Positions 1,629 through 48,154 of a stretch of DNA of 64,000 nucleotides are shown here, piece after piece. The position numbers were made by a program, and so were the translations under genes. The stretch covers positions 1 through 64,000 of the forward strand of contig NZ_CP094828.1 in the NCBI RefSeq assembly GCF_022865125.1. Direction: 5' to 3'. Within the stretch, counting starts at the first letter, position 1; each line of letters begins with the position of its first letter. This DNA comes from Acuticoccus sp. I52.16.1. GTDB taxonomy: Bacteria; Pseudomonadota; Alphaproteobacteria; Rhizobiales; Amorphaceae. The notes beneath the pieces are model-generated. The model was not told where the DNA came from, ran no database searches, and saw nothing but the letters and a program-made list of their open reading frames with translations.

Positions 1629-2426
1629 CTATTGCGCATCCTGCCAGAGGGCGTGGAAATGATGGACCGGGCCATGGCCGTGACCGATGGACAGCCGGTC
1701 CGCCGCGGCGATCGCGCCGGAAATATAACGCTTCGCACCGGCGACGGCGTCCGCGAGGCCGGCCCCCTTCGCCAGATGCGCCGCGATCGCCGAGGAGAGC
1801 GTGCAGCCGGTTCCATGCGTGTTACGGGTGGCGACGCGCGGCGAGGTCAACCGCTGGCAAACCCCGTTGACGCACAGGATGTCGACGCTCTCGCCCCCTT
1901 CCAGGTGCCCGCCTTTGAGGAGGATGGCCGGACCGCGATCGGCCAGCGCCAGCGCCTGCTCGCGCATCTGCGCCTCGCCGGTCGCCTCGGCCGTGCCCAG
2001 CAGGACCGCCGCCTCGGGCACGTTGGGTGTGACGATGGTCGCGACGCCGAAGAGCCGCTCGCGCAGCGCCGCCACCGCCTCCTGCGGCACCAGACGATGG
2101 CCGGAGGCGGACACCATCACCGGGTCGAGCACCACCGGGACCGGAACCGCGGCCAGCATGTCGGCCAGCCGGTCGATCAGGGCGACGTCGGCCAGCATGC
2201 CGATCTTGATGGCCGCGACGTCGAGGTCGGACATGACCGACGTGAGCTGGTCGGCGACGAAGTCCGCCGGGATCGGAAAGACCCCCTGCACACCGATGGT
2301 GTTCTGCGCCGTCAGCGCGGTGATGACGCTGGCACCATAGACGCCCAGCGCCGCGAAGGTCTTCAGGTCGGCCTGGATGCCCGCGCCGCCGCCGGAGTCG
2401 GAGCCCGCGATGGTGAGCGCGATCAC
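1629..2426 (-). CDS. thiD: Hydroxymethylpyrimidine/phosphomethylpyrimidine kinase
   Basis: Phosphorylates HMP and HMP-phosphate to HMP-pyrophosphate, one of the two halves of thiamin. The ribokinase-fold signatures are clear: [17 protein letters not shown] near the N-terminus and the ATP/anion-hole motif [18 protein letters not shown] near residue 210. Length of 265 residues is normal for ThiD. The start is a GTG whose bases overlap the TGA of the upstream thiM-thiE gene (GTGA), so translation is coupled. With the upstream fusion it completes salvage of HMP and thiazole into thiamin phosphate, under the TPP riboswitch. Confidence 0.95.
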
Positions 2427-3865
2427 GAGGTGGCCTCGTCGCTGCGTGCTCCGGCGAACGCGCGTCGCAGCGCCTCGGCCGCCGCGCGCGGCGAGGCGGC
2501 CTTGGTGATGGCGCTGATGACGGCGATCCCGTCCGCCCCGGCGCCGGCGAGCGCCTCGGCCCGCGCCTCGTCGATCCCGGCGATGGCGATGACCGGCAGG
2601 TCCGGCCGGCGCCGGCGCAGCCGTTCGGCGATGCGGCGAAACCCGTCGATGCCGATCGGCGGGTTGGGGTTCACCTTGCTCGTCGTCTCGAACACGCCGC
2701 CGACCGAGGCATAGTCGATCGGCTGGTCGTCCGCGGCGACGGCCTCCTCCAGGGTGTGGATCGTCAGGCCGATGATGGCGGTGGGGCCGGCGATCTCGCG
2801 CGCCTGCGCCGCCGTCAGGTCGCCGTGGCCGACATGGACACCGGCCGCACCCGCCGCCCGCGCGACGTCGGCCCGGTCGTTCACCAGGACGGGGACCGGC
2901 GAGGCGGCGACGAGGGCGCGTACCGCCGCCACCTGCTCGGCGGTGGAGCCGGTCTTGTCGCGCCACTGCACCAGTGTCACGCCCCCGGCGGTCGCCGCGC
3001 GCACGGTGCGCAGCGGGTCGGGCTCCCCTGGGCCGAGGAGCAGGTAGAGCCGCGGGTCGAGCGGCGGGGCGACGACGCGGATGCGGGCGGCGATGTCCTG
3101 CGCGTCGGCGGTGCCGATGGCGTCCAGCAGCGCGGTGGCGAACGATCCGGGGCCGGGGTTGCTGGGGGCCACCATCTCGCCGGAGACGTTCATCAGACTG
3201 AGGCCGGCGATCGCGGCCAGCAGCGGATCGCTCTCGATCGCCAGCATGGATGCGATCAGCATCCCCGCCGCGCACCCGGTGCCGGTGACGCGGGCGAGCT
3301 TGGACGTCCCGTTGGCGAGGTAGAGCGTCCGGTCGCCGGCGGCCGTGCGCACCGAGATGCGGTCGACCGCCCCGCTGGTGACGGCGACGGTCCCGTCCGG
3401 CACCGGGCCGAGCGCCAGCATCTCGGCCGCGTTGCCCTTCACGACCTTCGGTTCGTAGGCGAGCAGCTCTCGCGCGAAGGCGAGCCGGGCGGGCACGCGG
3501 TCGACCTTGACCGGATCAAGCATGAACGGCGTTCCGGTGCGCACGGCCGACAGGATCCCCGCCCGGCGCGCCGAATCGAGCATGCCCAGGTTGACGCAGA
3601 TCGCGCCCGATTTGGCGGCCATGGGGCGCACCTCCTCGGCGTCGACGGTCATCGAGATGTCGACCCCGGCGGCGGCGGCGACGTTGGCGACGAGGGGCTG
3701 GGCCACCGGCGCGACGAGCGCATGGACGCGAGGGCGGGCCATCGCGAGGCGGCCCAGCGTGGCGGCGACGTCGGCGACGGGGAAGGCCGGTGCCGTGACC
3801 GGACGGACCGCCGGCGCGGTATCGGGCGCGGCGGCGACGGACTGAGCGATAGATGGTGGCGTCAC
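2423..3865 (-). CDS. thiM-thiE: Bifunctional hydroxyethylthiazole kinase / thiamine-phosphate synthase (ThiM-ThiE fusion)
   Basis: A 480-residue two-domain protein. Residues ~35-260 are a hydroxyethylthiazole kinase: ANVAAAAG near 60, VVKGNAAEM near 141, and the ATP-site motif [11 protein letters not shown] with C198. Residues ~270-470 are thiamine-phosphate synthase: [38 protein letters not shown] and [13 protein letters not shown]. The protein would phosphorylate salvaged thiazole alcohol and join it to HMP-pyrophosphate. The kinase loop usually reading DPVGxGA is [11 protein letters not shown], a deviation worth noting. Residues 1-30 are an Ala/Pro-rich lead. Start is GTG at 3865, preceded by GGAG inside the 3' part of the TPP riboswitch. 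The next gene, thiD, overlaps by 4 bases. Confidence 0.92.
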
Positions 3866-3873
3866 GCGGTCTC

Positions 3874-3953
3874 CAATCCCTTCGCCGGCATGACCCGGAG
3901 CAGGTTCGAGGGGTCGGCACGCGGCCTCTCAGCCCGAAGGCACCCCCTTGGAC
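3874..3953 (-). promoter_or_regulatory. TPP riboswitch (THI element)
   Basis: Read on the minus strand the element shows all conserved THI-box blocks in order: GGGGTGCC, GGCTGAGAGG (carrying the CTGAGA that binds the pyrimidine), ACCTGCTCCGGGTCATG and GCCGGCGAAGGGA. It ends about 9 bases before the GTG of thiM-thiE, so the Shine-Dalgarno GGAG is next to the last stem. By family knowledge TPP binding would shut translation (or transcription) of the salvage operon. The closeness to the ribosome site favours translational control. Confidence 0.95.
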
Positions 3954-4067
3954 GATTCAGTTCCTCGATATCTAGTGGGTTTTCCGGCCATCGCCAACAC
4001 CCGGCGGGGTTGCCGGGCGGGATCGTTTGGCGCATCAACGGGCAGCGGGAGGAGCCCAGAGGACCCT

Positions 4068-39565: not shown

Positions 39566-39972
39566 GCAGCTCCTCTGGGCCGGCGTCGCGGCCAGCTCTA
39601 TTGAGCCGTTTGCAGGAAGGCTAGACGCCGGGGCGACAATTTTCACATCGCCCGCGGCCGGTGCGATCGAACTGCGCCGGATCCTGCGCACTTTCGCGCC
39701 GTTCGGCCAGGACCGTCGCGCCCGGACACGGTCACAATGTCGCGATCACCGCGCCCGCGCCGAAGGCGGACGCCGCCGCGCGCCCTCGTGCGCGCCCCCG
39801 CGCGTTTGAGCCTGCGCGAATCGGCCGGTGCGAATCGGGCCGGCGCCGCGCAGCGACGGGGCGCGCTCGCTCGCCTTCCCCGTCTGTGCTCGTGGGCACG
39901 TCCCGGCACTGTCGCGGCGCCCACCTCGGGGCTGCGGACGGCCGCGGTGCCGTCCTTCACGAGGAGGCGCAG
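39566..39972. other. Intergenic region between ferritin-like and sigma-factor genes
   Basis: 407 bases with divergent genes on either side. I see no conserved RNA or convincing small gene. The sigma-factor frame stays open leftwards to 39661, but codon use and lack of similarity speak against it being coding. A GAGGAGG ribosome site at 39961-39967 marks the likely start of the sigma gene. Confidence 0.4.
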
Positions 39973-40602
39973 TTGATTGCTGATAGAGTCGCAAACGCCG
40001 GGCCGCCGGCCTTCGTGGCCGCGCGCCCCCGGCCCCGCCCCGTACTTCGCGTGATCCCCGGTTGCCAGCAGACCGGCCCGCGCCACGATCCCGTCGCCGG
40101 CCTGCTCTCGGCCGTCGCCGCCGGGGACGAGCGCGCCTTCCGCGACCTCTATGCCCTGATCGCGCCGCGCCTTCGGGCCCACGCCGCCCGGCGCGTGGCG
40201 GACGAGGTCGCCGCCGAGGAGGTCGCCCAGGACACGCTGCTGGAGGTCTGGAACGCCGCGCGCCGCTACGACGGGCGGACCACCGGCGAGGCCTGGATCA
40301 TCGCCCGCGCCGAGCGCCATATCCAAAGCGCCTGCCGCCCCGCGCCTATCGAGACGACGCCGATCCCCGAGGCGCTGGCGGCGCCCGACCCGATCGCCGC
40401 CGGCGAGATCGCCGAGGCGGTGCGTGCGGTGGTGGCGACGCTCCCCCGCGAGGAGCGCCAGGCGATCCAACGCTGCCACCTCGATGGGCTGACCATCGCC
40501 GACGCCGCCCTCGCCGCGGGCCGCTCCGTGGCGACGGTGAAACTGCACCTCTCCCGCGCCCGGCCACGCCTGCGCGCCCGCCTCGCCAAACTGCGCGGCT
40601 GA
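39973..40602 (+). CDS. ECF-type RNA polymerase sigma factor
   Basis: About 209 residues if TTG 39973 is the start (GAGGAGG 5 bases upstream); GTG 40051 would give 183 residues beginning just before the conserved part. Region 2 is LLSAVAAGDERAFRDLYALIAPRLRAHAARRV followed by EEVAQDTLLEVWNAARRYDGR; region 4 is LPREERQAIQRCHLDGLTIADAALAAGRSVATVKLHLSRARPRLRARL. No anti-sigma gene follows. It is divergent from the Tat ferritin-like gene, a possible target. The stop is 2 bases before the sigma-54 promoter of the guanidine operon. Confidence 0.85.
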   Translation: MIADRVANAGPPAFVAARPRPRPVLRVIPGCQQTGPRHDPVAGLLSAVAAGDERAFRDLYALIAPRLRAHAARRVADEVAAEEVAQDTLLEVWNAARRYDGRTTGEAWIIARAERHIQSACRPAPIETTPIPEALAAPDPIAAGEIAEAVRAVVATLPREERQAIQRCHLDGLTIADAALAAGRSVATVKLHLSRARPRLRARLAKLRG

Positions 40603-40604
40603 GC

Positions 40605-40620
40605 TGGCATCCCTCTTGCT
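40605..40620 (+). promoter_or_regulatory. Sigma-54 (RpoN) promoter of the guanidine operon
   Basis: TGGCATCCCTCTTGCT fits the -24/-12 consensus TGGCAC-N5-TTGCW with exact GG-N10-GC spacing (GG 40606-40607, GC 40618-40619). Transcription would start near 40630, i.e. just before the first base of the riboswitch stem at 40632, which strongly supports it. RpoN promoters need an activator such as NtrC; I could not find a clean NtrC site, which would lie inside the sigma-factor gene. Confidence 0.75.
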
Positions 40621-40631
40621 TCGATCCCCTC

Positions 40632-40744
40632 GTGCGGTGCGTCTAGGGTTCCGGCGTTGGTGACAGCGCGACTGGTCCGAGAGACGCAAGCCCTGCCGGT
40701 GGCGGGGTTACACGGCGGGCCAAAATCCCGGGAGAACGCCGCAC
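40632..40744 (+). promoter_or_regulatory. Guanidine-I riboswitch (ykkC class)
   Basis: All conserved blocks are present in order: CTAGGGTTCCG (40643-40653), ACTGGTCCGAGAG (40671-40683), ACACGG (40710-40715) and CAAAATCCCGGGAGA (40721-40735). The outer stem P1 pairs GTGCGGTG (40632-40639) with CGCCGCAC (40737-40744), one G-U pair. Guanidine binding is expected to switch the downstream genes on. In the 90 bases that follow, CCTTCTC (40777-40783) can pair with GAGAAGG (40825-40831) at the ribosome site, so translational control is plausible; this last point is inference. Confidence 0.95.
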
Positions 40745-40833
40745 GGTTCCGCGCTCGAGCGGGTCCGTCTCCCGGTCCTTCTCGTGCGCATTCATTGCGA
40801 TCCGGCACACGCCGGCCCGAGGAGGAGAAGGTG

Positions 40834-41904
40834 ATGACACCGACCAAGGCCGTCGCGGCGCTCGCCGCCATCCTGGCCACCGCCGCCGCCAGTATCCCGG
40901 CCAGCGCCCCCGCCAGCGCCCAGGAAAAGACCGACTTTTCGGTCTGCTGGTCGATCTATGTCGGCTGGATGCCGTGGGGCTACATGCAGGACAGCGGCAT
41001 CCTGAAGAAGTGGGCCGACAAGTACGGAATCACCGTCGAGGCCGTGCAGATCAACGACTACGTCGAGTCCATCAACCAGTACACCGCCGGCCAGTACGAC
41101 GGCTGCTCGATGACCAACATGGACGCCCTCTCGATCCCCGCCGGCGGCGGCGTCGACACCACCGCCCTCATCGTCGGCGACTATTCCGACGGCAACGACG
41201 GCATCGTCCTGAAGGGCAATGACACCCTCGCCGAGATCGCCGGCGAGCGGGTCAATCTCGTGGAGCTGTCGGTCTCGCACTATCTGCTGGCGCGAGGGCT
41301 GGAGATGGTCGACCTCGCCGAGCGCGACATCACCGTCGTCAACACCTCCGACGCCGACCTCGTCGCCGCCTACACCACGCCGGACGTCACGGCCGTGGTC
41401 ACCTGGAATCCGCTGCTGTCGGAAATCCTCGGCATGCCGGACTCCACGAAGGTGTTCGACTCGTCCGAAATTCCGGGCGAGATCATCGACATGATGGTCG
41501 TCAACACCGAGACGCTCCAGGCCAACCCGGACTTCGGCAAGGCTCTGGTCGGCGCCTGGTACGAGACGATGGCGCTGATGCAGGGCGACGACATCGACGC
41601 GCTGACCGCGATGGCGACCGCCTCCGGCACCGACATCGAAGGCTACAAGGAGCAGCTCGCCTCCACCGCGATGTTCTACACCCCGGCCGAGGCGGTGGAG
41701 TTCGTCGCCGGCGAGGGCCTCCCCGAGACGATGACATTCGTCGCCACCTTCCTGTTCGATCACGGCATCCTCGGCACCGGGGCGCCGAGCGCGGAGTTCG
41801 TCGGCGTGGAGTATCCGGACGGGTCCGTCACCGGCGACACGGGCAACGTCAAGCTGCGCTTCGACACCACGTACATGCAGATGGCGGCCGACGGCCGGCT
41901 CTGA
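40834..41904 (+). CDS. ABC transporter substrate-binding protein, guanidine operon (NitT/TauT-like)
   Basis: 356 residues with a Sec signal peptide (cleavage near ASAPASAQ, residue ~29). Mature part: DFSVCWSIYVGWMPWGYM, DYVESINQYTAGQYDGCSMTNMDALSIPAGGG. This matches the NitT/TauT-related binding proteins formerly named after the urea-carboxylase region, which are now tied to guanidine use. It presumably binds guanidinium in the periplasm. First gene behind the guanidine-I riboswitch; ATG 40834 has GAGGAGGAG upstream. The conserved acidic/aromatic residues suit a small cation. Confidence 0.9.
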   Translation: MTPTKAVAALAAILATAAASIPASAPASAQEKTDFSVCWSIYVGWMPWGYMQDSGILKKWADKYGITVEAVQINDYVESINQYTAGQYDGCSMTNMDALSIPAGGGVDTTALIVGDYSDGNDGIVLKGNDTLAEIAGERVNLVELSVSHYLLARGLEMVDLAERDITVVNTSDADLVAAYTTPDVTAVVTWNPLLSEILGMPDSTKVFDSSEIPGEIIDMMVVNTETLQANPDFGKALVGAWYETMALMQGDDIDALTAMATASGTDIEGYKEQLASTAMFYTPAEAVEFVAGEGLPETMTFVATFLFDHGILGTGAPSAEFVGVEYPDGSVTGDTGNVKLRFDTTYMQMAADGRL

Positions 41905-41920
41905 CGCGGCAGCAAGGCCC

Positions 41921-42742
41921 ATGCGCCTCGTCAACCGCAAGCCCGATCGCGTCGGCGCCATCCTCCTCGGCGCGATCCCGTTCGCGGTGGCGCTGGTGGC
42001 CTACGTCGTCGGCAGCGCGATCCGGCGGGCGGAGAACCCGGCCGACAAGCTGCTGCCCTCGCTCGGCGCGATGTGGACCACCTTCACCCGCATGGCCTTC
42101 GAGGCCGACAAGCGCACCGGCGACTACCTCCTGTGGGTCGACACGGCCGCGAGCCTGGAGCGGCTCGCCGCGGGCATGGCGATCGCCGCCGCGCTCGCGG
42201 TGGTGCTCGGCGCCGTCGTCGGCATCCTGCCGCTGGGGCGGGCGTTGTTCTCGCCCTTCGTGTCCGCCTTCTCGCTGATCCCGCCGATCACGGTGCTGCC
42301 GATCCTCTTCATCGTGCTGGGTCTCGGCGAGGCGGCCAAAGTCGGCCTCATCGTGGTGGGTACCGCGCCGCTGATGATCCGCGCGGTGGCACAGGCGATC
42401 CTCGACCTGCCGCGCGAGGAGATCATCCGCGCGCAGACGCTGGGCGCCTCGACGCTGCAACTCGCGGTGCGGGTGGTGTTGCCGCAGATGTGGCCGCATC
42501 TCGTCCGCGCGATCCGGCTGGGGCTGGTGCCGGCGTGGATCTTCCTCGTCTCGGCCGAGGCGATCGCGGCGACCGAGGGGCTCGGCTACCGCATCTTCCT
42601 CGTGCGGCGCTACCTCGCGATGGACGTCATCATCCCCTACGTCGTCTGGATCACGCTGCTCGCCTACCTGATCGACCGCGCGCTGGCGTTTGCCTCACGC
42701 CGCCTCTTCCCCTGGGCACACCTCGCGGGGGACAGCCTGTGA
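41921..42742 (+). CDS. ABC transporter permease, guanidine operon
   Basis: 273 residues, about six membrane helices, BPD_transp_1 type. The ATPase-coupling EAA loop is visible around residue 170 (EEIIRAQTLGASTLQLAVRVVLPQMWPHL). Family closest to NitT/TauT-type permeases. Starts 16 bases after the binding-protein gene and its TGA overlaps the GTG of the ATPase gene (GTGA). Confidence 0.92.
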   Translation: MRLVNRKPDRVGAILLGAIPFAVALVAYVVGSAIRRAENPADKLLPSLGAMWTTFTRMAFEADKRTGDYLLWVDTAASLERLAAGMAIAAALAVVLGAVVGILPLGRALFSPFVSAFSLIPPITVLPILFIVLGLGEAAKVGLIVVGTAPLMIRAVAQAILDLPREEIIRAQTLGASTLQLAVRVVLPQMWPHLVRAIRLGLVPAWIFLVSAEAIAATEGLGYRIFLVRRYLAMDVIIPYVVWITLLAYLIDRALAFASRRLFPWAHLAGDSL

Positions 42743-43554
42743 GCTACGTGGAGGTGCGGCGGCTGGGGCTGACCTACGGCCAATTCCCGATCCTCGAGCG
42801 CGTCTCCATGGAGGTCGCGCAAGGGGCGCTGGTGACGATCGTCGGCGCGTCGGGCTGCGGCAAGTCCACCTTTCTGCGCATGCTGCTGGGCCAGGAGCAG
42901 CCGACCGAGGGCGCGATCTTCATCGAGGGCGCGCCCATCGCGCGCGAGCCGGATCCGGACCGGGGCATCGTCTTCCAGAAGTCGTCCGTCTTCCCGCACC
43001 TGACGGTGCGTGGGAACCTGATGCTGCCCTTCGAGATCGAGCGGGGCGGTCCCTTCGCCCGGCTCACCGGCGCGCGCCGGCGCGAGGCGCGCCCGAAGGC
43101 GGAGGCGATGATGGAGCGCATCGGCCTCGCCCACGCCGCGACGCGCTATCCCGTCCAACTCTCGGGCGGAATGCAGCAGCGGCTGGCGCTCGGCCAGGCA
43201 CTGCTGCGGCGGCCCAAGATCCTGCTGCTGGACGAACCCTTCGGCGCGCTCGATCCCGGCACCCGGCGCGAGATGCAGGCGCTCCTGGTGGAGCTGTGGC
43301 GCGAGACCGGGATGACCGTCTTCATGGTCACGCACGACATCCGCGAAGCCTTCGAGCTGGGGACCCGCGTCCTCGTGTTCGACAAGATCCGCCACGACCC
43401 GCAGCACCCGCACGCCTACGGCGCGACGATCACCTACGACATCCCCCTGAAGAGCCCCGTCGCGGGCGAGAGCGGCGCCACGGCCCCGGCCGCCGAGGCC
43501 CGGCCGCGCGCGCCCCATCTCACCCTGCTGACGAACACGAAGGAACGTTCATGA
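42739..43554 (+). CDS. ABC transporter ATP-binding protein, guanidine operon
   Basis: 271 residues: Walker [10 protein letters not shown] near 37, Q-loop [12 protein letters not shown], signature [15 protein letters not shown], Walker [13 protein letters not shown], switch His in [11 protein letters not shown]. Energises guanidinium uptake with the preceding permease. A C-terminal tail of ~45 residues beyond the core is Ala/Pro-rich. GTG start within the permease stop; its own stop overlaps the ATG of the hydrolase (ATGA). Confidence 0.93.
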
Positions 43555-44765
43555 CCGACCACCCCGTCCGCGCGTCCCGCAAGGCCGGCACCCGCACACG
43601 CGCACGGCCCGCTCGGCGCCATCACCCCGACTTCAACGCCCGCGAGACGCGCGGCTGGAAGGCGCTGGAGAAGGAGAACGCGCTCCCCGGCAGCGCCTGG
43701 GCGGCCGAGCAGAAGTGGGCGCTGGAGATGGGCCTCCCCGGCGCCCCGTCGCTGGAAGACCGCACGATCCCGACCTTCGCGCGGGGCGAGCTGCCGCACT
43801 TCGCCGGCATCAACACCTTCCTCAAGGCGCCCTACGTCGAGAACATTCGCGACGTCGCCAAGTACGACGCGGCGGTGCTGGGCGTGCCGTTCGACAGCGG
43901 CACCACCTACCGGCCCGGCACGCGCTTCGGCCCGCAGGGGATCCGCCGCATCTCCGCGCTCTACACCACCTACAATTACGAGCTGGGCGTCGACCTGCGC
44001 GAGCAGATGACGCTGTGCGACGCGGGCGACGTCTTCACCATCCCCGGCAACCTGGAAAAGTCGTTCGACCAGATCAGCCGCGGCGTCGGCCACGTCTTCG
44101 CCTCCGGGGCGCTGCCGGTGATCCTGGGCGGCGACCACTCGATCGGCTTTCCGTGCGTGCGCGGCATCGCCGAGAACACGTCGAAGAAGATCGGCATCAT
44201 CCACTTCGACCGGCACATCGACATCCAGGAGAAGGACCTCGACGAGCGGATGCACACGACGCCGTGGTACTGGGCGACGAACCTGCCCAACGTGCCGGCG
44301 GTGAACCTCGTACAGCTCGGCATCGGCGGATGGCAGGTGCCCCGTCCGGGCGCGGCGGAGGCCTACCGGCGCCAGACCAACGTGCTCACCATCGAGGATA
44401 TCGAGCACTACGGCCTTGAAAAGACCGCCGAGATCGCCCTGGAGCTGGCCTGGAAGGACGCCGACGCGGTGTACATCTCGTTCGACGTCGACAGTCTGGA
44501 CTGCGGCTTCGTGCCCGGCACGGGGTGGCCGGAGCCGGGCGGGTTCCTGCCGCGCGAGGCGCTGAAGATCCTCGGCCTCGTCTGCGCGCCGGGGATTTGC
44601 GGGTTGGAGGTGGTGGAGGTTTCCCCGCCATATGATACGTCCGACATCACGGCGCTGATGGGCACGCGCGTCGCGGTCGAGGCGCTCGGCTCCATGTGTG
44701 CCCACGGCACGCTCGGCAAGCACAAGGCGATCATCGACAAGCCGATCGACTACGAGAAGGCGTAA
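43551..44765 (+). CDS. gdmH: Ureohydrolase, probable Ni-dependent guanidine hydrolase (GdmH type)
   Basis: 404 residues of the arginase/agmatinase fold. Metal ligands: H196 (GGDHSIG), D220, H222 and D224 (HFDRHIDIQ), D312 and D314 (SFDVDSLD). Compared with agmatinases (about 300-350 residues) it has a ~95-residue N-terminal extension, and Arg221 replaces the usual Ala of HFDAH, followed by DERMHTTPW; as I recall, both traits occur in the nickel-dependent guanidine hydrolase of Synechocystis. It would split guanidine to urea and ammonium. The guanidine-I riboswitch and transporter in the same operon support this over agmatinase or guanidinobutyrase. Residues 1-25 are basic, probably disordered. 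Confidence 0.85.
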   Translation: MTDHPVRASRKAGTRTRARPARRHHPDFNARETRGWKALEKENALPGSAWAAEQKWALEMGLPGAPSLEDRTIPTFARGELPHFAGINTFLKAPYVENIRDVAKYDAAVLGVPFDSGTTYRPGTRFGPQGIRRISALYTTYNYELGVDLREQMTLCDAGDVFTIPGNLEKSFDQISRGVGHVFASGALPVILGGDHSIGFPCVRGIAENTSKKIGIIHFDRHIDIQEKDLDERMHTTPWYWATNLPNVPAVNLVQLGIGGWQVPRPGAAEAYRRQTNVLTIEDIEHYGLEKTAEIALELAWKDADAVYISFDVDSLDCGFVPGTGWPEPGGFLPREALKILGLVCAPGICGLEVVEVSPPYDTSDITALMGTRVAVEALGSMCAHGTLGKHKAIIDKPIDYEKA

Positions 44766-44767
44766 CC

Positions 44768-45238
44768 ATGCACCGCGGTCACGACGAACCGTACGACCCT
44801 TACGTCGCCCGCCCACACGGCGGCTCCCACCATGCCCACAATCACCGTGGCACGACGCAGTGGCAGACGCCGCATCGGGCCGACGGCGGCGACGCCGAGG
44901 CCCCGGTGACGCGCGAGGCCGATCTCGACCTGGTGGAGACGGCCTTCGTCGAGGGATTCCAGCACACCGCCGATCCGACGAGCTTCCTGCGCCTCGCCGG
45001 CGTCCCCTTCGTCGGCCGCCGCGCCGACGGGGGCGAGATGCGGCTGCTGCGGGTCGCGCTCGGCACCCGCGCCGACATGGCCTCGCTGACGCCCCACCTC
45101 GGCGGTGGCTCCTTCCGCTACGATCCGCTGCCGGCGGCGATGGTGTCCAAGCGCACCACGCTCGGCTTCGTCTACTTCGACGGCCACGACACCCTCGAAC
45201 TCTCGTTCGAGGAGGCCCGCGCGCTCGCCCCCGCGTGA
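44768..45238 (+). CDS. Small protein with His-rich N-terminus, candidate nickel-handling factor
   Basis: 156 residues, family not recognised. The first 36 residues carry eight histidines (2, 5, 17, 21, 22, 24, 26, 36), including an HHAHNH cluster typical of nickel or zinc binding. The rest is a compact alpha/beta domain (ADLDLVETAFVEGFQHTADPT, VPFVGRRADGGEMRLLRVALG, TTLGFVYFDGHDTLELSF) that I cannot place. It starts 2 bases after the hydrolase stop and is coupled to the next gene by GTGA. Since GdmH needs nickel and no HypA/HypB-like gene lies here, a role in nickel delivery or storage is a fair guess, not shown. Confidence 0.7.
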   Translation: MHRGHDEPYDPYVARPHGGSHHAHNHRGTTQWQTPHRADGGDAEAPVTREADLDLVETAFVEGFQHTADPTSFLRLAGVPFVGRRADGGEMRLLRVALGTRADMASLTPHLGGGSFRYDPLPAAMVSKRTTLGFVYFDGHDTLELSFEEARALAPA

Positions 45239-46479
45239 GCGCGCCCGAGACCCCGCCCGCCCGCGCGCGCAGCGCCAAGCCCCCGCGTGCCGCCAGGGGT
45301 GCGGCAACGCCCGACGCTATCCTCACCAATGCCGAGGCACGGCACGTCTTTCTGACGCGCCACCTCCTCGCGGTCCCGCCGACCGGACCGGCGGACCTTG
45401 CGACCGTCGAGGCGACCATCGGCCGGCTCGGCTTCGTGCAGGTGGATTCGATCCCCACGGTGGCACGCGCCCACCACATGATCCTCTACGCCCGCCACCA
45501 CCGCTACCGCGAGAAGACGCTGACCCGCCTGCTCGACTCGCGCCGCCTGTTCGAGGGGTGGACGCACGACGCCAGCCTCGTCCCGATGGCGTTCTGGCCC
45601 TATTGGCGCCGCCGCTTCCGCACCGCCGAGACACGCCTCACCGCCCGTTGGAGCGACGATGGCCGCAACCTTTCCATGTGCGAGCAGGTGCTGGCCCACG
45701 TGCGCGACAACGGCCCCACCCTGTCGCGCGACTTTGCCGAGGAGAAGTCGTCCGCCGGGTGGTGGAACTGGCAGCCGACCAAGGTCGCGCTCGAGTTCCT
45801 GTGGCGCACTGGAAAGCTCGCCGTGTGCCACCGCGAGGGGTTCCAGAAGGTGTACGACCTCACCGAGCGGGTCGTGCCGGCGGACCTCATGGCGCAGGAC
45901 GTGAGCGAAGAGGCGATCGTCGACTGGGCGGCCGAGGCTGCGCTCACCCGCCTCGGCTTCGCCACCCCGCGCCAGCTCGCCGACTTCTTCGAGCTGATCA
46001 CCGCCGAGGAGGCCGAGGACTGGATCGCCCGCAGCGCCGACCGGCTCCGCCCCGTCGGCATCACGCTGGCCGACGGGACGGTGCGCCGCGCCGTCGCGTT
46101 CGACGACGGCGCACCGCTCGACACCGCGGCCCCCACGGGCCGGCTGCGTATCGTCAGCCCGTTCGACCCGATGGTGCGCGACCGCCGCCGCACCGAGCAG
46201 CTGTTCGACTTCTTCTACCGGATCGAGATCTACGTCCCCAAGGAGAAGCGGCAGTACGGCTACTACGTCTTCCCGATCCTGGAGGGCGACCGGTTCGTCG
46301 CCCGGATCGACATGGCGCGCGGCGCATCCGGGGCGCTGGAGGTCGCCGGGGTGTGGCCGGAGGCGCGGGTGCGTTTCGGCGCCGCCCGCACGCGCGCGCT
46401 GGAGGCGGAGCTGACCCGCCTCGCCCGCTTCGCCGGCTGCGACGGCGTCACCTTCCTGGACGGCTGGCTGCGCGGCTGA
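45235..46479 (+). CDS. YcaQ-family winged-helix DNA repair glycosylase homologue
   Basis: 414 residues. Family features: a tandem winged-helix architecture, the catalytic QxD motif as FVQVDSIPTVARAHHMILYARH (residues ~62-83), DASLVPMAFWPYWRRR, and C-terminal FDPMVRDRRRTEQLFDFFYRIEIYVPKEKR. E. coli YcaQ (AlkX) unhooks interstrand crosslinks and removes bulky alkyl-purines. GTG start overlaps the stop of the His-rich gene, so it is translationally coupled to the guanidine operon, for which there is no obvious reason. It ends 1 base from a convergent gene. Confidence 0.88.
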   Translation: MSAPETPPARARSAKPPRAARGAATPDAILTNAEARHVFLTRHLLAVPPTGPADLATVEATIGRLGFVQVDSIPTVARAHHMILYARHHRYREKTLTRLLDSRRLFEGWTHDASLVPMAFWPYWRRRFRTAETRLTARWSDDGRNLSMCEQVLAHVRDNGPTLSRDFAEEKSSAGWWNWQPTKVALEFLWRTGKLAVCHREGFQKVYDLTERVVPADLMAQDVSEEAIVDWAAEAALTRLGFATPRQLADFFELITAEEAEDWIARSADRLRPVGITLADGTVRRAVAFDDGAPLDTAAPTGRLRIVSPFDPMVRDRRRTEQLFDFFYRIEIYVPKEKRQYGYYVFPILEGDRFVARIDMARGASGALEVAGVWPEARVRFGAARTRALEAELTRLARFAGCDGVTFLDGWLRG

Positions 46480-47032: not shown

Positions 47033-48154
47033 CTACTTCAGATCGGACGACATATCGACGATCGGCTGCCGGCCCTCGGTGGAGAGCTTCAGGACCGCGG
47101 TCCCGTCGAGGTCCAGCGTCGTCATGTCGACCATGCGGATGGTCTGGTCGTCGTAGGTCTTCCAGAAATAGCGCAGCGTGCCCGGGTCGCGCGCGACCGT
47201 CAGCATCGTGTAGTCGAAGTGCGTCTTGCCGTCCTCCTCCGCGCGCGCGGCGCCGACCGGAATGTCGAAATTGTTGAGGATGTGGAAGACCTGGAGCGCC
47301 GCCTCCTGCGAGGTCTTCGACCGGACCGCCATCGCGCTGAAGGCGGCCGCCCGCACGAAGCGCGACGGCGGGGTGAAATCGCCCGGAAGCCCCAGGAGGC
47401 CGGTCCCCTGGCCGAGCTGCTCGAGCTTCATGTCGTTCACCTCGACCTGCGGCACGTTGAGCGGGTTGAGGGCGACGTAGTTGCGCAGGTTGGTCATGTG
47501 CCAGTCGAACGTCGGCGAATTGGTGATGACGCCGAGGGGGTTGTCGAACAGCGTCAGCTCCCCGTTCATCGGCTCGATGACGAGGCTCTTGCCGCTCTTG
47601 TCGTAGACGACGTAGTGCAGCGGCTGCGGCACCGGCGGAAAGCCGGGGATCAGCGTCGGCGCGATCTTCACCGTGCCCTTCTCTAGCGCGGCGCGCACCT
47701 CGTCGACGGTCTCGAAGCTGGTGACGAGCCAGTTGGGAAAGTCCGCCGGCCCCATCGACTGCGCCTGGTTTTCCGGCGTCGTCTGCGAATAACCGGCATA
47801 GGACGGGAAATAGAACGATCCGACCGCGAGGCCCTTCTCGTTGATCCCGTCGATCAGCGCCAGATTGCCGAACGCGATCGCCCCGACGGCGGCATATTTG
47901 GCGGTCCATGCCATGCCCTCGCCCGACGGCGTCTCGCCGGTGAAGGCGTAACCGCGCGGGATCATGACGATGTCGGTGTCGATGTACATGCCGAACTCGA
48001 GCGTGCGACCGTTGACGGTCTGCCCGCCGGTGGTGGTCAGCATGATGCCGGTGCAGGCCAGCGCGCTCTGCGCGACGATCCCGCCCGCCAGCACACCGGC
48101 GAGGGTGGCGGCCATCACGCGCTTGAGTGGGGTTGCGATCTGCATTCGGGGCAT
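47033..48154 (-). CDS. Secreted choloylglycine hydrolase (linear amide C-N hydrolase) family protein
   Basis: 373 residues, Ntn-hydrolase fold. Signal peptide ends SALA and the mature protein begins with Cys34 (CTGIMLTTTGG), the nucleophile set free by signal peptidase. Further family residues: RTLEFGMYIDTDI (Arg and Asp), NEKGLAVGSFYFPSY, VITNSPTFDWHMTNLRNY (Asn). By family the enzyme cleaves amide bonds of bile salts, penicillin V or acyl-homoserine lactones; a marine or soil alphaproteobacterium makes acyl-homoserine lactone or N-acyl amides likelier. Periplasmic. ATG 48154 or ATG 48145 can start it. Confidence 0.88.
   Translation of the reverse strand: MPRMQIATPLKRVMAATLAGVLAGGIVAQSALACTGIMLTTTGGQTVNGRTLEFGMYIDTDIVMIPRGYAFTGETPSGEGMAWTAKYAAVGAIAFGNLALIDGINEKGLAVGSFYFPSYAGYSQTTPENQAQSMGPADFPNWLVTSFETVDEVRAALEKGTVKIAPTLIPGFPPVPQPLHYVVYDKSGKSLVIEPMNGELTLFDNPLGVITNSPTFDWHMTNLRNYVALNPLNVPQVEVNDMKLEQLGQGTGLLGLPGDFTPPSRFVRAAAFSAMAVRSKTSQEAALQVFHILNNFDIPVGAARAEEDGKTHFDYTMLTVARDPGTLRYFWKTYDDQTIRMVDMTTLDLDGTAVLKLSTEGRQPIVDMSSDLK

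Follow-up and report, generated by a model that had tools for sequence, protein, structure and literature searches.

The window analyzed here is a stretch of 64,000 nucleotides from Acuticoccus sp. I52.16.1 (contig NZ_CP094828.1, positions 1 to 64,000, forward strand). In this window, a guanidine-I riboswitch is followed by six genes on the same strand, which encode a binding protein, a permease, an ATPase, a hydrolase (P0004), a small protein (P0005) and an AlkZ/YcaQ-like protein, in this order. P0004 appears to be a GdmH-type nickel guanidine hydrolase, and P0005 is proposed to deliver nickel to it. The tight coupling of the genes, described in an earlier note on this DNA, is real: 4-base overlaps are seen between the permease and ATPase genes, between the ATPase and hydrolase genes, and between the small gene and the YcaQ-like gene, and the gap between the hydrolase gene and the small gene is 2 bases. 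The features are as follows.

40632-40736, + strand: guanidine-I riboswitch aptamer (Rfam RF00442, 89.2 bits, gathering score 63, E-value 1.1e-14)
40728-40831, + strand: probable expression platform, from complementarity and predicted fold
40834-41904, + strand: ABC transporter substrate-binding protein, which probably binds guanidine (TIGR03427, 550 bits, cut-off 334)
41921-42742, + strand: ABC transporter permease (PF00528)
42739-43554, + strand: ABC transporter ATPase, GTG start (PF00005)
43551-44765, + strand: P0004, predicted GdmH-type nickel guanidine hydrolase, 404 amino acids (PDB scores, residues and tree)
43620-43634, + strand: HHPDF motif, hydrolase residues 24-28
44768-45238, + strand: P0005, a small His-rich protein whose family has no name and which is proposed to deliver nickel to GdmH alone (80 of 80 loci, no credible database relative)
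45235-46479, + strand: AlkZ/YcaQ-like DNA glycosylase homologue, GTG start (PF06224, 217 bits), overlapping the small gene

Compared with PDB sequences, P0004 scores 534 bits against 9fek from Nitrospira inopinata and 530 bits against 7esr and 7oi1 from Synechocystis. The next is guanidinobutyrase at 168 bits, and agmatinases reach at most 126 bits. The long N-terminus and the HFDRH motif, by which the enzyme had been recognized at first, are both present, the motif at residues 218-222. According to the available text of PMC11410670, guanidinases have Thr, His and Trp at positions 105, 222 and 313 of the N. inopinata enzyme, and also Glu344. Mapped via the PDB alignment, the counterparts in P0004 are T119, H235, W326 and E356. 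The six metal ligands, H196, D220, H222, D224, D312 and D314, are also present; these are common to other ureohydrolases.

Related loci were collected by a GdmH-profile scan of named genomes. The 80 loci compared below are the best 80 of 567 confirmed candidates, and are thus close relatives. By their labels, 79 are proteobacterial, nearly all Alphaproteobacteria by name, and one (L103) is a metagenome-assembled genome of Anaerolineae. All ten ligand and specificity residues are conserved in P0004 and at all 80 loci. In the 21 other ureohydrolases of the relatives, the metal ligands are kept, while the Trp is replaced by Thr (20 proteins) or Ser (one). Two other ureohydrolase-like genes in the Acuticoccus genome encode proteins 34 and 27 percent identical to P0004. 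The GdmH of the nearest named relative among the loci listed, Acuticoccus yangtzensis (L033), is 96 percent identical.

The ureohydrolase tree that the earlier note had proposed as a check was built by maximum likelihood with 54 rows. P0004 falls into the guanidinase group (29 rows, support 100/100) together with both solved guanidinases, 9fek and 7esr. The guanidinobutyrase, guanidinopropionase and proclavaminate amidinohydrolase are all placed outside this group. The GdmH proteins accompanied by P0005 form a group (22 rows, 100/99) which is the sister of the Synechocystis enzyme (96/94). Of the 86 loci L033-L118, 25 are included as rows, together with L011, and ureohydrolase matches covering 230 or fewer query residues were dropped; L003 was below the threshold, and characterized agmatinases are not among the rows. 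The tree is midpoint-rooted, and a program warning pointed to long branches in the outgroups. The clade, the specificity residues and the gap in PDB scores support the assignment of P0004 as a GdmH-type guanidine hydrolase, rather than an agmatinase or guanidinobutyrase, as was originally claimed.

It is very improbable that P0004 acts on another guanidino compound, such as agmatine, guanidinobutyrate or methylguanidine, with the riboswitch sensing a product or a contaminant. Such an activity would fit the annotation of four plasmid records, "agmatinase family protein", a name which the earlier note had foreseen for automatic annotation, and the score of 166 bits against the agmatinase model TIGR01230, whose cut-off is 174. 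The guanidinase clade, the Thr and Trp specificity residues and the riboswitch all speak against it.

A homologue of P0005 is encoded directly downstream of gdmH at 80 of 80 loci. The small gene overlaps the stop of gdmH at 30 loci, starts 0-50 bases after it at 39, and 51-344 bases after it at 11. The start sites of the small genes were chosen by script; those of L034 and L036 were trimmed by hand to the conserved start, and the gene of L051 is broken by an assembly gap. In Sinorhizobium glycinis (L069), P0005 and GdmH at first looked fused; this was a script artefact, as there is a stop codon between the genes. P0005 is kept at loci where the importer was not found. In Ancylobacter (L056), for example, a riboswitch lies just ahead of gdmH and the small gene, and the search for importer genes found none. 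Wherever an alphaproteobacterial GdmH locus among those examined retains the guanidine-specific residues, it also has a P0005 homologue.

The same association is seen in two genome samples, which overlap in some genomes, including that of the window. In the sample of the class (385 genomes), GdmH was found in 11 genomes (E-value up to 1e-100) and P0005 in 13 (E-value up to 1e-4), among them all 11 with GdmH. In the sample of the phylum (398 genomes), GdmH was found in seven (E-value up to 1e-90) and P0005 in the same seven, all in the class of the window. The hypergeometric values, 1e-19 for the class and 3e-15 for the phylum, are far too strong because of the kinship of the genomes, and the tree shows a single gain.

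The two additional P0005 matches in the class sample, G423 and G184, are read as remnants and not as independent occurrences. In G423 (L155, contig 49), a P0005 homologue with a His-rich C-terminus is joined to a truncated binding protein of the guanidine type, and the 7.5-kb stretch around it gave no match to gdmH; this locus is probably a deleted operon. In G184, the match is a P0005 fragment with a stop. Nor is the carrier from Anaerolineae (Chloroflexota), L103 (JANQQD010000070.1), accepted. Over 5.7 and 4.7 kb, its DNA shares 89 and 93 percent identity with the alphaproteobacterial genome G207, and because of this identity over ~10 kb the contig is probably misbinned. Among the loci seen, GdmH occurs outside Pseudomonadota only on four actinobacterial plasmids (records L115-L118) and in L103, which is doubtful.

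P0005 was called His-rich by the earlier note. This is true but modest: there are 11 His among 156 residues, 8 of them in the first 45. The 80 relatives have a median of 17 His within their first 60 residues. His runs are seen in nearly all 80 members, in one case (L101) at the C-terminus instead. The AlphaFold2 model of P0005 has a disordered His-rich leader and an alpha+beta core (residues 61-156), whose pLDDT is 91-97 in blocks of ten residues. An alignment of 62 rows was made from P0005 and 61 of 66 non-redundant sequences (L059, L065, L071, L082 and L086 were omitted). The majority of the conserved positions lie in the core. In the leader and linker, H7 (53/56), H24 (58/60) and H36 (55/61) are conserved.

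No relative of P0005 was recognized in databases. P0005 alone has no match in Pfam or NCBIfam, and against PDB sequences (E-value up to 1) it has two chance matches only. The 62 family members, used singly and as a profile, gave only weak matches in Pfam, NCBIfam and PDB sequences, which look like His-run or chance matches. The comparison of the core with solved structures gave no clear match, and the 50 entries listed include no nickel chaperone, be it HypA, HypB, UreE or another. A small protein like P0005 is not mentioned in the literature searched (titles, abstract openings and term counts); Funck 2022, which reported the discovery of GdmH, and Sinn 2021 lie outside this literature.

Three known families of nickel-handling proteins were considered for P0005 and rejected. 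The hallmark of HypA is two CxxC zinc pairs. All four HypA proteins compared keep these four Cys, while any of the 80 P0005 members has at most one Cys, and the hhalign probability is 0.45 percent. HypB or UreG does not fit either, as a P-loop pattern is seen in one of 80 members, taken as chance, and there is no Pfam domain match. UreE is rejected since neither UreE_N nor UreE_C of Pfam matches P0005, whereas UreE encoded in the same genome matches both.

In the available text of PMC10094980 and PMC12930504, the Synechocystis operon encodes GdmH, the nickel-delivery proteins GhaA and GhaB, which are of the HypA/HypB type, and an ABC importer. Operons with hypA and hypB are also described in the part of PMC8390497 that was available. 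Searched by tblastn with HypA (four proteins) and HypB (three proteins) as queries, the 80 loci gave neither hypA nor hypB. The Acuticoccus genome has no HypA match, and its HypB matches are UreG-like only and below the cut-off. Among the 19 genomes with a GdmH-like gene, seven have HypA (PF01155) and five have HypB over the cut-off. Among the 18 genomes with both GdmH and P0005, 12 have neither over the cut-off, including the Acuticoccus genome. A HupE/UreJ-like nickel-permease gene (PF04955, the query taken from L006) is present at 29 of 80 loci.

One genome, G046, is of a different composition. Its GdmH-like enzyme (L011/L157) has Thr for the guanidine-specific Trp and an internal His-rich insertion, and P0005 is not adjacent. 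It is therefore possible that this enzyme is no guanidinase. On another contig, C270, the genome encodes HypA and HypB together with further ureohydrolases.

P0005 could instead be a structural or regulatory partner of GdmH, such as a small subunit, a stabilizer or an inhibitor, whose histidines are incidental or serve another metal. We regard this as unlikely. The position of the conserved residues, mostly in the core, agrees with such a role, and so do the leaders of L158, almost gone, and of L159 and L160, both short. The distances between P0005 cores follow those between GdmH proteins (r 0.90, 3160 pairs), but both also follow the species tree. The His runs in nearly all members, in L101 shifted to the C-terminus, speak against a partner of this kind. 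So do the location of P0005 beside GdmH, where Synechocystis has GhaA and GhaB, and the HupE-like neighbors.

The genome has two ureC (urease alpha) genes over the cut-off, at 952 and 826 bits. The first is adjoined by UreG and by UreE with a His-rich tail. With GdmH and these two urease genes, the route from guanidine to ammonia is complete on paper, and we infer that this bacterium could grow on guanidine. Urease is over the cut-off in 18 of the 19 genomes with a GdmH-like gene. The exception, G039, has GdmH and P0005 without urease. This distribution, together with UreE and UreG in the Acuticoccus genome, would also agree with the supply of nickel to GdmH by the urease helpers, in which case P0005 would be merely a store or buffer of nickel or zinc. 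This is quite improbable in our view. A store needs neither linkage to GdmH at every locus nor a conserved folded core, and in G039 the urease itself is absent, though its GdmH looks N-terminally damaged.

The riboswitch was examined with the Rfam search suggested by the earlier note. The aptamer matches RF00442 well over the cut-off and is the sole guanidine-I match in the 5.5-Mb genome. The earlier description of a full aptamer at 40632-40744 holds for its completeness and its start, while the match ends 8 bases sooner, at 40736. Its 3' strand (40728-40735) is able to pair with 40768-40775, and 40777-40783 is able to pair with 40825-40831, where the first gene has its ribosome-binding site. 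The fold is somewhat unusual for 40720-40850 (z = -2.17) and not unusual for 40632-40850 (z = -1.04). As the ribosome-binding site lies within a predicted hairpin, the window sequence suggests that the riboswitch controls translation. An intrinsic terminator fits less well, as no T-run was seen by eye, although no terminator scan was made.

At 75 of 80 loci, the riboswitch model matches upstream of gdmH on the same strand. The upstream sequences of L083, L092 and L103 end too near to show one, and L046 and L089 have no match. In L073 the riboswitch is 7.4 kb upstream of gdmH, so that its tie to gdmH is uncertain there. In the window, 29 bases separate the riboswitch from the end of an upstream gene for an ECF-type sigma factor (39661-40602, + strand, start uncertain). 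A second riboswitch in the window, of the thiamine pyrophosphate (TPP) class, is at 3860-3957 (- strand, 65.7 bits). The open reading frame downstream of it (2423-3865, - strand) encodes hydroxyethylthiazole kinase and thiamine phosphate synthase domains, a possible fusion.

The ABC transporter noted earlier was identified in all three components, by TIGR03427, PF00528 and PF00005. It was not named a nitrate/taurine transporter, as had been expected. TIGR03427 is the "putative urea ABC transporter substrate-binding protein", and the same name is given in one RefSeq record. Guanidine is likelier than urea as the cargo, because the importer sits behind a guanidine-I riboswitch. Near gdmH, tblastn found the binding protein at 65 of 80 loci, the permease at 69 and the ATPase at 74, the last count including at least five weak matches on the opposite strand.

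The YcaQ-like gene was correctly identified as such by the earlier note, but its place in the system did not stand. It is present at only one of 80 loci, in Acuticoccus yangtzensis, where it is not adjacent; this excludes it as a component of the conserved system. It adjoins the small gene in L005 of the same genus, and is a genus-level passenger. Downstream of the operon, a gene for a choloylglycine-hydrolase family (CBAH) protein is located on the - strand (47033-48154).

Taken together, this is fairly probably a guanidine-inducible import-and-hydrolysis operon in which P0005 is the nickel-delivery protein of GdmH and replaces helpers of the HypA/HypB type. Guanidine would bind the riboswitch and turn on the operon, and the ABC importer would take guanidine in. 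GdmH, a dinuclear nickel ureohydrolase, would split guanidine into urea and ammonium, and urease encoded elsewhere in the genome would complete the breakdown. P0005 would do what GhaA and GhaB do in the cyanobacterial operon. Nickel may be collected by the disordered His-rich leader of P0005, and the folded core may recognize GdmH and transfer the metal, perhaps via the clade-specific N-terminal GdmH segment HHP[DNSE][FYL], which is conserved in all 80 related hydrolases having the small protein. The HHPDF segment of P0004 is a possible docking or metal hand-over site.

Several observations weigh against P0005 as the nickel-delivery protein. With 8 His, the His leader of the window protein is a weak one. 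In L158, which starts with MPHDAAPEPG, hardly any of the leader is left, and the leaders of L159, L160 and L103 have few His. Conserved residues that could bind metal are scarce in the core (D69, 62/62). Of the 18 genomes with P0005, four encode HypA and HypB as well, and another two show only a partial match to HypA. All carriers seen belong to one clade, so the co-occurrence of P0005 and GdmH represents essentially one evolutionary event, not many. Finally, a dedicated chaperone of GdmH may be dispensable, because no helper is seen nearby for the guanidinases of comammox Nitrospira and of the actinobacterial plasmids L115-L118. On these plasmids, neither P0005, HypA nor HypB was found within 6 kb of the guanidinase gene; one of the four enzymes is without the Trp, and L115 has the riboswitch.

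The chances are about even that P0005 is also the founder of an undescribed family of nickel-delivery proteins, which is unrelated to HypA, HypB, UreE and UreG, serves GdmH alone, succeeded the HypA/HypB-type helpers at the root of alphaproteobacterial GdmH and transfers nickel via the HHP[DNSE][FYL] tail. The earlier note merely listed the small protein, and its role as a stand-in for HypA/HypB is proposed here. For N. inopinata, the available text of PMC11410670 reports that no chaperone was found, calls nickel loading unclear, and describes a recombinant enzyme which was only partly loaded. The nickel supply of GdmH outside cyanobacteria is thus an open question in print, at least for that species, and P0005 makes it testable by co-expression. 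If P0005 does deliver nickel to GdmH, it would add a type of nickel delivery and a practical way to fully active guanidinase.

Among known systems, HypB of the relatives and UreE of this genome resemble P0005 in having a His-rich end beside a folded domain. This comparison concerns only how they may work, as P0005 lacks a conserved P-loop and does not match the Pfam models for HypB or UreE domains. The metformin/dimethylguanidine hydrolase operons (hypA, hypB and hupE) likewise combine a nickel ureohydrolase with nickel delivery genes, but their enzyme has two subunits and other substrates, and HypA and HypB are present. The guanidinase operon of Nitrospira inopinata (9fek), as far as the available text describes it, shares the guanidine-I riboswitch and a guanidinase of the same clade. 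It has an APC permease instead of the ABC importer, and no nickel chaperone was found there. The closest in composition is sll1077-1082 of Synechocystis PCC 6803, and the predicted import-and-hydrolysis operon of Acuticoccus is a new member of this known kind. In the published parts available, both have a guanidine riboswitch, an ABC importer and GdmH, which is 63 percent identical over the aligned part. They differ in the nickel-delivery genes: GhaA and GhaB in Synechocystis are replaced in position by one small protein of an unrelated family in Acuticoccus.

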